From Isosphaera pallida ATCC 43644 (lineage in GTDB: Bacteria > Planctomycetota > Planctomycetia > Isosphaerales > Isosphaeraceae), in the NCBI RefSeq assembly GCF_000186345.1, contig NC_014962.1:5112450-5176449 (forward strand): a DNA stretch of 64,000 nucleotides. The letters are read 5' to 3'. Each line of letters opens with the position of its first letter. Position 1 is the first letter of the stretch. Shown here piece by piece: positions 14,907 to 19,126 of the stretch. Below the pieces are notes generated by a model. The model saw only the letters and a list, made by a program, of their open reading frames with translations, was not told the origin of the DNA and ran no database searches. The translations under genes were made by a program, and so were the position numbers.

Positions 14907-16400
14907 TCAGCCCAAGCCCGTGGGGCTTGAGGAACCGGCTGGGTTGACCGACGCCCGCGAAATCAAGGCGTCGTCCACCATACCGAGATACTCCAGCACC
15001 AAGTCGCTCAAGAGGGGTCCCCAGATGGGTCGCGAACGCGCGGCGGCTCGAAGGAAGGGGAGTTTGGGCAACGCCAAAATCAGACTCAGATCATCTCCCC
15101 AATCGGAGGCATCGGTCAGGAACCGCGCTAAGGCATCGGGCTGGGTGCGCTCGAACATTCGCGTGAACAGAGTGGGAACCTGCTCGGGGTGGTCTCGCAG
15201 AACTTGGAGGAAAATCGTGTCGAGGAAGTCGTACTTCCGGGGGGCGACCCGCGGATCGCGCAGACCACGCGCTAGCGCCCGAACCTGGCGTTGAATCCTC
15301 ACAAAAGCGTAACCGCTGGAGGGCCGGGCGGCCCCGCCGGCTAAGCCGATGCGGCGGCAACGCCCCTGGGCGAAAGCTCGTTCCAGACCTACAGGAGGCG
15401 GCGCGGGTTGGGTGTTCATCGGGATCCGACCCGCCTCGGTTTCCAGAATCTCGTAGTCGTCGGCCCGCGCTGCCCATTGTTCGGCCAACGCCTGACGGAT
15501 CGCCTGTTCGTGACGCTCCCGTCCCACCCTGACGCCCGGCGGTAGCAGCATCGTGCTTTCCACCAGGCCGCCTCGTTCCGAGTCGGGCAGCACGTAGAGG
15601 AAATGCGGGCCGCATGACTGGTCGCAACGGAAGTCCATCAGGATCGGCGTCGTCGGGTCGAAACCCACGACTGGTGTCGGATGGGTCAGACGCACCCGCC
15701 AGCCGACGAACTGTTGCACGAGGCCACTCGATCCTTGTTCAAGCTCAACGTTGGTCCGCGTGCCGCGACCGTCGTTCCAGCCGGTCCCCAAGTAGAGACG
15801 GCGGCCCCGCGCCACGCCTAGCGAGGTGATGACCTCGAACCCCTCCTCATCGCCCAGGTCCCGACAGGATTCAACGGTGCGCCCCAGCGCCAGCCGCACA
15901 TTCTCCGCCCGGCTCAGCCGTCCTAGGGTGCGTTGGTAAACGTCGATGGCCCTAAGCCGCAGGTAGCGGTAACGCTTGGAGGCCGCCGTCACGTCCCAAT
16001 CGCTCCCCCCACGGCCACCCCCGGGCGCAACGACCCGCCAACGATCCCAAGCGTGGGTCGCCAGATCGTCGAACGCGGTGCGCTGGACGTTCCAGTAACA
16101 CCAAGTTCGGTCGTTGACGTAATGCGAGCGACGATCAATCAACAAAATCGAGTCCTGGGGCCGATGATCGAGCAACGCCCAGGCCAGACTCAACCCAGCG
16201 GCTCCCGCGCCGACGATCACATGGTCGTAGTCGCGGGGTCGTCCCGAGGCCGAGTCCGGTTCAAGCCAGTCGAACCAGTGGGGAGACTCGATCCGCGTTT
16301 GATCGGAGTTCGGTTCCGTGGTCCGCGGTGGCCGTGTGGGGAGCACCACCGTTGATTCCATCAACGGCCGGTGGAGCGAAGGCAAGGGGGCGGCGATCAT
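14907..16400 (-). CDS. crtY: CrtY-type lycopene beta-cyclase
   Basis: This enzyme cyclises both ends of lycopene to give beta-carotene. The 497 residues carry a dinucleotide-binding start, DHVIVGAGAAGLSLAWALL (GxGxxG at about 64-69), then the family hallmark NDRTWCYW (about 96-103). The RIPMNTQP block, the GLAGGAARPSSGYAFVRIQR block and a C-terminal FERTQPDALARFL segment also fit CrtY cyclases. I used the ATG at 16400; the ATG at 16361 and a TTG at 16460 are alternatives and none has a strong ribosome site. It follows brp/blh by about 110 bp on the same strand, matching the order of reactions from lycopene to retinal. Confidence 0.87.
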   Translation of the reverse strand: MIAAPLPSLHRPLMESTVVLPTRPPRTTEPNSDQTRIESPHWFDWLEPDSASGRPRDYDHVIVGAGAAGLSLAWALLDHRPQDSILLIDRRSHYVNDRTWCYWNVQRTAFDDLATHAWDRWRVVAPGGGRGGSDWDVTAASKRYRYLRLRAIDVYQRTLGRLSRAENVRLALGRTVESCRDLGDEEGFEVITSLGVARGRRLYLGTGWNDGRGTRTNVELEQGSSGLVQQFVGWRVRLTHPTPVVGFDPTTPILMDFRCDQSCGPHFLYVLPDSERGGLVESTMLLPPGVRVGRERHEQAIRQALAEQWAARADDYEILETEAGRIPMNTQPAPPPVGLERAFAQGRCRRIGLAGGAARPSSGYAFVRIQRQVRALARGLRDPRVAPRKYDFLDTIFLQVLRDHPEQVPTLFTRMFERTQPDALARFLTDASDWGDDLSLILALPKLPFLRAAARSRPIWGPLLSDLVLEYLGMVDDALISRASVNPAGSSSPTGLG

Positions 16401-16511
16401 GGGGGACGGCCTCGCCAGAACCAGGGACGGGGGAAGGGACAGAGCAACCACGAACACCAAGCAAGCCGAGTCTTCACTTCGGAGGCGAGTGGGACGGCGT
16501 GGATGGGGGAG

Positions 16512-17609
16512 TCAGACGATCGACCCGCCGGAGCCAACCGGCTTGACCGACCAAACGCCCTGGAATCGATCCATCGCCGCGACCACGATCAGATGGGGAA
16601 TCGTCACCGCGCTAAGAAACGCCAACGCCAGGAAGCCCAGATCGGTCGGCTCCCGAATCCGGTCCCACGCCAACCAACCCAGACCACCCATCAACAGAAA
16701 AGCCGCCGTGTTGGTTGGCCAGGTCCGTTTCAAAAACCAGCCCAAGGTGGCAAGGACGCCGGGACGACGACCAGGCGCAGCTAGGTCGGCAATCCGCTCG
16801 ACATGCCGAAGCGCGTGCCACACATGGAAATAGACACCCATTGCGAGAATTGGAGGCACCAAGGCGAAGCTAGCCCAGAGCAGGGCCGTTTCACCCAACT
16901 CAGCAGCGATGTCGCGTCTCAGGTCAGCTCGTCGGGATGCTAGCGACACTCCACGGATCAACTGGGTCAGAGAGGCCCCGCCCACCAGAAGCCAGGCCGT
17001 CCACCAGGCCGCCGTTCCCTGGGGCAGGGGCGGTGGCGGCGGACCGCCCGAGGCGGTTGTCTGACCCCCGAATCGGGCTAGCGCCTCGCCGAAAAGGTCG
17101 GGGAAGGCTAGAACCGGCAGCACGATTGGCACGCAGCCCCGCGTCAGCAGGAACGCCAAGCGGTCGATCCTGCCGCCGGCCACTCGCAGCGGACGGCTCC
17201 AAACCAGGTCACCTTGGCCAAAATGCAGCGCTGCGGCAATCAGGAACAAGGCCAGAGCCAGGCCTGGTGCCACCCACCAGACAAGGAGGACGGCGGCCAT
17301 GAGCAAAAGGTACCCCGACGCAAACGCCAAATGCGCCTTCAGCGATCCCGACCGATCCCGACCCGATAAACGTCTCAACAACGGCCCAATTTCATGGTCG
17401 AACGCCCCGTGAGGCATACCCAGGACCGCCAGCCCCACGACCCACGGCAACCATTCGACCCAAACTGGCCATGAGCGGATCGGAACCCCCAACGCCTCAC
17501 TCATCCCCGCCGCGATCAAGACGCCAGCCAGAGCCAACGGCCCCAACCACAACGCGATTGAGCCACGCGCTTGGCAATCGAACGTGCTGGGAGAGCGATC
17601 GGCACGCAT
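16512..17609 (-). CDS. blh: Brp/Blh-family beta-carotene 15,15'-dioxygenase
   Basis: This membrane iron enzyme splits beta-carotene into two retinals, the rhodopsin chromophore. The 365-residue protein is all-helical and hydrophobic. It has the family signature GMPHGAFDHE (His at about 67 and 72), LHFGQGDLVW (His 129) and YFHVWHALRHVERI (His 262, 265 and 269), which together supply the iron ligands. The ATG at 17609 precedes the first helix; the frame reads back to 17792 through Pro/Arg-rich sequence that does not look conserved. It is divergent from the rhodopsin and upstream of crtY, so retinal production and the pump are encoded side by side. Confidence 0.9.
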   Translation of the reverse strand: MRADRSPSTFDCQARGSIALWLGPLALAGVLIAAGMSEALGVPIRSWPVWVEWLPWVVGLAVLGMPHGAFDHEIGPLLRRLSGRDRSGSLKAHLAFASGYLLLMAAVLLVWWVAPGLALALFLIAAALHFGQGDLVWSRPLRVAGGRIDRLAFLLTRGCVPIVLPVLAFPDLFGEALARFGGQTTASGGPPPPPLPQGTAAWWTAWLLVGGASLTQLIRGVSLASRRADLRRDIAAELGETALLWASFALVPPILAMGVYFHVWHALRHVERIADLAAPGRRPGVLATLGWFLKRTWPTNTAAFLLMGGLGWLAWDRIREPTDLGFLALAFLSAVTIPHLIVVAAMDRFQGVWSVKPVGSGGSIV

Positions 17610-17884
17610 GACGCTTCGACGCCTTCGACTTGTGACGCATTCCAAAAAACCTGGCCAAGGGCCGCCCGGACGTGGTTCCCCGATAGGAAGGAAAAGGGAT
17701 GAGGGGATCCAAATCGGTGGTGGGTGACAGGTCTGTTTGAACAACGCGAGTCCGACAGGAAGTTTAGACCGGCGGCAACAGCGTCGGTCCAAATTTCTTC
17801 AACGCAGTGCCAATGCCTCAAAACCGTCCAATCCCCTCCGGAATCCCGTTCTAAACGAATTGTCCAAAAAAATCGCGCGGCCTC

Positions 17885-17912
17885 TTGACCGTGGTTTGGA
17901 GACGACTATACG
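17885..17912 (+). promoter_or_regulatory. Candidate sigma-70-like promoter of the rhodopsin gene
   Basis: TTGACC (17885-17890) and TATACG (17907-17912) are separated by 16 bp and read toward the rhodopsin. Transcription would start near 17919 and give a leader of about 280 nt. Hexamers were matched by eye. Confidence 0.45.
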
Positions 17913-17963
17913 AACCAACGGGTCGATCAGACGAGATGCTCCCATTGCATGACGGCCCTCTCA

Positions 17964-18036
17964 ACGGTGAGCGACACAGCATGCCGTATTGACTTCCATC
18001 GAAGTCGAAGTCTTGGAGCATACGGTATCTCACCGT
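17964..18036 (+). promoter_or_regulatory. Long interrupted stem-loop in the rhodopsin leader
   Basis: ACGGTGAG (17964-17971) pairs with CTCACCGT (18029-18036). ATGCCGTAT (17981-17989) pairs with ATACGGTAT (18020-18028) with one G-T pair. GACTTC (17991-17996) can pair with either of two tandem GAAGTC copies (18001-18006, 18007-18012). The left arm has a nine-base bulge between the first two helices. The element lies downstream of the predicted start site, so it would be part of the mRNA; a DNA operator is also possible. Confidence 0.55.
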
Positions 18037-18084
18037 CATCCTCACATGGATGTTGTCGTGCTTGGGAAATAATGCCGTCACCTC

Positions 18085-18117
18085 CGGTTTGTTGGCCTCG
18101 ACCTGAGGTACAAACCG
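18085..18117 (+). promoter_or_regulatory. Second stem-loop in the rhodopsin leader
   Basis: CGGTTTGT (18085-18092) pairs perfectly with ACAAACCG (18110-18117). Inside it CCTC (18096-18099) pairs with GAGG (18105-18108) around a five-base loop. No T-run follows, so it is not a standard terminator. It lies about 80 nt before the rhodopsin ATG. Confidence 0.55.
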
Positions 18118-18199
18118 TAGTGCGCGTTCGTCTGTCTGTGCCTCGCTTCACCACCCGATCTGTGCCAGTCCGTTCACGTCTTGGTATTGGAGTCTGACA

Positions 18200-19126
18200 A
18201 TGACGACGAGCTTGCTCACCGCAGGTTTGCTGCTGTTCTTCGCTCAGGAGGGCAGCACGGCTGCTCCGGCTCCCGAAGCTCCTGCTGCAGCGCCCGCTGC
18301 GACGGAAACCTCGGCGGCCCCGTCCAAGGAGCCTGGCCTGCCGACCCTGACCCCCGCTCAGTACAGCACTGTGTACAACATGTTTTCTTTCACCATCGCC
18401 TCGATGGGTGCCTCGGCTCTGTTCTTCTTCCTGTCGCGCAACCAGTTGGCTCCCAAGTATCGTCCGGCGATGATGGTGTCGGGCTTGGTGGTTTCCATTG
18501 CCTGCTACCACTATTTCCGAATCTTCGAGAGTTGGGAAGCGGCTTACGAATTGACCGGGGGCCAATACGTACCGACGGGCGCGGTCTTCAACGACGCCTA
18601 TCGTTACGCCGACTGGCTGCTGACCGTGCCTCTGCTCATGGTTGAGTTGATCGCGGTGTTGGCGTTGCCCAAGGGCGAGGGTCGTGGTTTGCTAGTCCGT
18701 CTGTCGGTGGCCGCCTTCTTCATGATCGCGCTGGGTTACCCCGGCGAGATTGCCAAGTACGAAGCCGGCGCCCAGTACTGGATTTTCTTCGTCCTGAGCA
18801 TGATTCCGTTCCTGTACATCCTCTTCGTGCTTCTGACCGAATTGACCAAGTCGCTGGAGCGTCAGCCCGAGAACGTGCGGGGCTACATCTCGGCTGCCCG
18901 CCTCATTGTGCTGGTCTCGTGGTGCTTCTACCCGATCGCCTACCTGGCCTCTGGCGTGGGTGGTCTGTCGGGTGCTCAGGCTGAGGTTGGTCTGCAAGTT
19001 GGCTACACCATTGCCGACATCGTTGCCAAGGCGGTCTTCGGTGTGTACATCTACTTTATCGCCCGCACCAAGAGCGAGAACGAAGGGTACGAAGTGTCGG
19101 CTCAGCCAGCCGTCGCCACCGCCTAA
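18200..19126 (+). CDS. Xanthorhodopsin-clade light-driven proton pump
   Basis: This 308-residue microbial rhodopsin should pump protons outward across the membrane. Helix C reads RYADWLLTVPLLMVE: D138 is the proton acceptor, T142 the middle residue and E149 the donor, the DTE triad of proton pumps. The helix G segment TIADIVAKAVFG holds the retinal lysine K277 and counter-ion D273. H104 (CYHYFRIFESW) matches the acceptor-linked His of proteorhodopsin and xanthorhodopsin. L146, the colour-tuning position, predicts green absorption. F197 stands where xanthorhodopsin has the Gly that admits a carotenoid antenna. The first 46 residues form a hydrophobic, signal-like start and an Ala/Pro linker absent from xanthorhodopsin. 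TTGGAG lies 7 nt before the ATG. A strong terminator follows, so it is probably monocistronic. Confidence 0.96.
   Translation: MTTSLLTAGLLLFFAQEGSTAAPAPEAPAAAPAATETSAAPSKEPGLPTLTPAQYSTVYNMFSFTIASMGASALFFFLSRNQLAPKYRPAMMVSGLVVSIACYHYFRIFESWEAAYELTGGQYVPTGAVFNDAYRYADWLLTVPLLMVELIAVLALPKGEGRGLLVRLSVAAFFMIALGYPGEIAKYEAGAQYWIFFVLSMIPFLYILFVLLTELTKSLERQPENVRGYISAARLIVLVSWCFYPIAYLASGVGGLSGAQAEVGLQVGYTIADIVAKAVFGVYIYFIARTKSENEGYEVSAQPAVATA

Follow-up and report, generated by a model that had tools for sequence, protein, structure and literature searches.

A conserved promoter and a predicted long, hairpin-bearing leader upstream of the rhodopsin gene of Isosphaera pallida

The rhodopsin locus and its divergent neighbours

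In the bacterial rhodopsin–blh clusters of retinal phototrophy, a rhodopsin gene stands beside genes for a beta-carotene 15,15'-dioxygenase and a lycopene cyclase, and the locus of Isosphaera pallida described here resembles them in this company. An Isosphaera-like population with a rhodopsin and a gene for a carotene-cleaving enzyme was reported from a hot-spring mat in 2017 (PMC5459899), and a literature search among open papers found no paper on the regulation of the rhodopsin considered here.

The window, that is, the whole stretch of 64,000 nucleotides that was analysed, belongs to a genome of 5.53 Mb in two contigs. It encodes on the plus strand (18200–19126) a rhodopsin of 308 amino acids, a light-driven pump, which is classed as xanthorhodopsin-type on account of its Bac_rhodopsin domain (PF01036, E 6.5e-39) and of xanthorhodopsin being its nearest sequence match and best solved relative (3ddl, E 3.5e-83). 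On the minus strand, divergent from rhodopsin, lies blh/brp (16512–17609; PF15461, E 3.5e-69), encoding the beta-carotene 15,15'-dioxygenase of retinal synthesis, followed on its 3' side by a lycopene cyclase gene (14907–16460, minus strand; PF05834), and this gene order is kept in relatives. The divergent pairing of rhodopsin with blh and the lycopene cyclase gene is preserved in six relatives of the family. The explanation that we consider likely as a whole takes the space between rhodopsin and blh as an ordinary divergent regulatory gap, with the retinal- and carotenoid-making genes on its far side.

The core of the rhodopsin (18338–19123, plus strand) has an LPTLTP stretch at its N-terminus and an LGYPGE segment in common with 3ddl, the closest solved structure. 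It is preceded by an N-terminal extension of residues 1–46 (18200–18337, plus strand), with a hydrophobic start and then an Ala/Pro-rich part, which is missing in the family relatives; their rhodopsins start with (V/M)ELS(V/L)xQF or near variants, behind a strong ribosome site. An in-frame AAGGAG at about 18328–18333 occupies the position of the relatives' ribosome site, as if an upstream start had replaced an older one, and the codon score of the 46-residue extension is neutral, yet highest in the rhodopsin frame. Translation would begin at 18200 from the Shine-Dalgarno (SD) sequence GGAG (18188–18191, plus strand), and the accessibility of this start region is ordinary (57th percentile of leaders). 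An upstream open reading frame of 82 codons (17949–18197) came out as non-coding in a coding-score test.

The promoter of the rhodopsin gene

The original prediction had proposed a promoter-like pair, TTGACC and TATACG, with a leader of about 280 nt behind it, and the comparison of genomes bears this out, since the hexamers and their spacing recur upstream of rhodopsin in other genera. In the window, TTGACC (17885–17890) and TATACG (17907–17912) can be read from the plus strand with a spacer of 16 nt. When the gaps of seven relatives were read, TTGACG-16-TATCCC (L095), TTGACG-16-TATGGC (L100) and TTGACG-16-TATGCC (L101) were found oriented toward rhodopsin and 190–250 nt 5' of its start, along with the looser variants TTGAAT-16-TACAAA (L096) and TTGACT-17-TAAAAA (L099). 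Three further genomes of the family (G012, G025 and G008) carry TTGACG-16-TAT at the equivalent position. The extended motif CTTGAC-N16-CTATNC, which covers 17884–17911 in the window, appears 190–250 nt upstream of rhodopsin in G012 and G008, and in G025 with its last base different.

Such sequences are infrequent elsewhere. TTGAC-N17-TAT occurs three times, both strands summed, in the 464 kb of the window's genome that were used as background (0.003 per kb per strand), and it is present in the rhodopsin gap at four of the eight rhodopsin loci. Genome-wide, the extended motif has a single occurrence in I. pallida (G000, 5.5 Mb), at 17884 before rhodopsin, a single one in G012, again at rhodopsin, and two in G008, one of which is at rhodopsin; the motif was defined after the sites had been seen, and the positional coincidence across distinct genera is still far beyond chance. 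With −35 and −10 hexamers, a spacing within the 15–19 nt of sigma-70-type promoters and conservation upstream of orthologous genes, 17885–17912 is, judged from these comparisons, a real and evolutionarily conserved promoter of rhodopsin. This conservation makes a transcription start near 17919 likely, from which the sigma-70-type promoter would drive rhodopsin behind a 5' leader of about 281 nt.

Further genomic matches of the motif lie at unrelated genes; for example, CTTGAC-N16-CTATGC is conserved immediately 5' of a Y-family-DNA-polymerase-like gene (named by eye) in two genomes that share a genus (L153, L154 at 1501). Because the motif stands there 5' of an unrelated gene, its best reading is that of a housekeeping core promoter, which would carry no light-specific signal. 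On the blh strand of L099, TTGACG-17-TATACA lies about 38 nt before blh (reverse-complement), so that a comparable core promoter may serve blh in that relative; in the window, none was seen for blh on the minus strand of the gap.

Hairpins within the predicted leader

The predicted leader (17919–18199, plus strand), whose start is placed from the −10 hexamer, folds with a minimum free energy of −100.5 kcal/mol (z about −2.2 to −2.3), and 3 of 200 shuffles fold as well, i.e. it beats 197 of them (98.5%). For the 200 nt immediately 5' of the called rhodopsin start, z is −1.16 against a background mean of −0.35 (sd 1.02, 156 leaders). The leader exceeds chance in structure only modestly.

Two inverted repeats, which probably form local hairpins, lie within it. 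The first is interrupted (17964–18036) and has perfect 8-bp outer arms, ACGGTGAG (17964–17971) and CTCACCGT (18029–18036), inner arms of 9 nt, ATGCCGTAT (17981–17989) and ATACGGTAT (18020–18028), and the pair GACTTC/GAAGTC in its loop. The stem-loop that had been proposed here holds for the outer arms and for GACTTC/GAAGTC, but the inner arms are complementary at eight of nine positions and do not make the 9-bp helix expected of them. The second repeat (18085–18117) is present as it had been described, with perfect 8-bp arms, CGGTTTGT (18085–18092) and ACAAACCG (18110–18117), and a nested 4-bp CCTC/GAGG helix.

The first hairpin has z −2.7 on the plus strand and −2.6 on the minus strand, with energies of −27.5 and −34.0 kcal/mol, respectively, the minus-strand form being the more stable, and the second (z −3.0 plus, −3.3 minus) is also more stable on the minus strand. 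Among 90-nt windows, the simple G+C-corrected energy of the first hairpin falls at the 14th percentile on the plus strand and at the 1.2th on the minus strand, and the best local fold of the rhodopsin gap, located on the minus strand, ranks 20th of 61 intergenic gaps. Two perfect 8-bp inverted repeats are found in 2.1% of shuffles and in 8.6% of the real 286-nt intergenic tiles of this genome; when the nested helix is added, a joint criterion that was set post hoc, the figures become 0.2% and 1.4%. Hairpins of such strength are common among the intergenic gaps of the genome, and those of the leader stand out little.

Symmetry at the DNA level, with perfect 8-bp arms and a minus strand that is equally or more strong, is what a DNA operator at 17964–18036, bound by a regulator of rhodopsin or blh, would display, and an operator had been suggested for the first repeat. 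However, its arms are 57 nt apart, at about +46 to +118 relative to the predicted start, and the repeat has neither a second copy in the genome nor a counterpart in relatives, all of which leaves an operator quite unlikely. The single-copy state of the repeat also largely refutes the reading of both repeats as remnants of a mobile element or of a repeat family. Such an origin might agree with a gap to the start at 18200 of about 590 nt, versus about 250–460 nt in relatives, and with a G+C content of the leader (0.55) below that of the window (0.63), but there is no obvious target-site duplication, and we regard it as highly improbable.

A blastn comparison (word size 7) of the leader with the gaps of seven relatives found nothing in common, and when homologues of the leader or promoter were sought in plasmids, in viral contigs and across 45 family genomes, nothing useful emerged. 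The sole DNA match of the leader in the 44 other family genomes, 27 nt in G020, falls within a coding gene, where the sequence is of the GAAGTCGAAGTC type, and was judged to be due to chance. The leaders of the relatives measure 70–220 nt and adopt unrelated folds (z −2.6 to +0.97). As far as these sequences tell, the hairpins are lineage-specific, with no counterparts in the relatives examined, which are other genera of the family, a comparison that a structure conserved in the genus only would escape.

For one pair of relatives from the same genus, L100 and L101, the leader can be aligned, with 75.8% identity versus 73.6% at third codon positions, and both sides have changed in 3 of 57 predicted pairs. 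Since the identity barely rises above that of third codon positions and double changes are so few, the pair offers no convincing covariation. The first 145 nt past the promoter contain in both the blocks GGAAG...CTTCC and CCGGCG...CGCCGG, which could form a hairpin-enclosing stem; these arms are invariant between L100 and L101 and therefore give no covariation either way.

Regulatory readings of the leader and known systems

The original prediction had also envisaged a riboswitch or protein-binding leader. In a cis-regulatory RNA of this kind, including one acting by attenuation, one or both hairpins would switch form on a signal and thereby control rhodopsin synthesis. A long leader behind a conserved promoter is consistent with such a function, as are the z values of the leader (about −2.2) and of its hairpins (−2.7 and −3.0). 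A weak excess of structure also appears when the eight rhodopsin leaders are taken as a group (mean z −1.35 versus −0.48 for control leaders, p about 0.02–0.03), which, owing to their unequal lengths and to two members that are close kin, amounts to a hint. Against this, Rfam at gathering thresholds matched no family in the leader, and the permissive threshold brought up SgrS alone, at a sub-threshold 15.1 bits versus a cut-off of 37. No terminator-like site was found on the plus strand of the leader, nor is the ribosome site sequestered beyond background, so neither form of a riboswitch expression platform was detected in it. A possible pairing between GACTTCCAT and the ribosome site, promising by eye, was discarded, as the best anti-SD duplex is equally or more stable in the leaders of 79% of genes. 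Considering in addition that the relatives lack a counterpart and that the fold is stronger on the opposite strand, a switching leader appears unlikely. It is very unlikely, too, that the leader represents a new regulatory RNA by which rhodopsin synthesis is tuned to light or to the supply of retinal or carotenoids, and which evolves so fast that the leaders of relatives, downstream of the same promoter, would be differently built but functionally equivalent.

Temperature had been put forward as another possible signal. An RNA thermometer would be plausible in a hot-spring organism, and the leader does contain stable helices, but the predicted thermal opening is absent: in silico, pairing of the SD sequence is near-constant from 25 to 55 °C, with its two G bases staying about 0.12–0.17 unpaired, the start region does not stand out among leaders and the ribosome site lies outside both hairpins. 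We therefore give a thermometer scarcely any credence.

An ordinary conserved promoter followed by a long 5' UTR with lineage-specific, non-switching hairpins is probably the right description of this region. The hairpins would have at most a general effect, such as slower mRNA decay or a fixed level of translation, and would not respond to a ligand or to temperature. What the locus offers is a rhodopsin promoter backed by comparative genomics, within a divergent rhodopsin–blh layout that is retained across several genera. The leader constitutes a concrete object for testing, and its hairpins are by themselves insufficient for claiming a new RNA switch.

With the riboswitches and RNA thermometers of Rfam, the leader shares its 5' position and its stable hairpins, whereas it differs from them in having no family match, no visible expression platform and no demonstrated conservation. 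The likeness to bacterial sigma-70 promoters lies in the TTGAC −35 element and the TAT-type −10 element, with a ribosome site and start codon downstream; unlike these, the promoters of the window and its relatives have a spacer of 16 nt in place of the usual 17, a −10 element ending in CG, CC or GC rather than AT, and a long leader. Finally, while the rhodopsin is accompanied by the same enzymes as in other bacterial rhodopsin–blh clusters, in the window and in the family relatives it is divergent from blh and the lycopene cyclase gene and would be transcribed from a promoter of its own.
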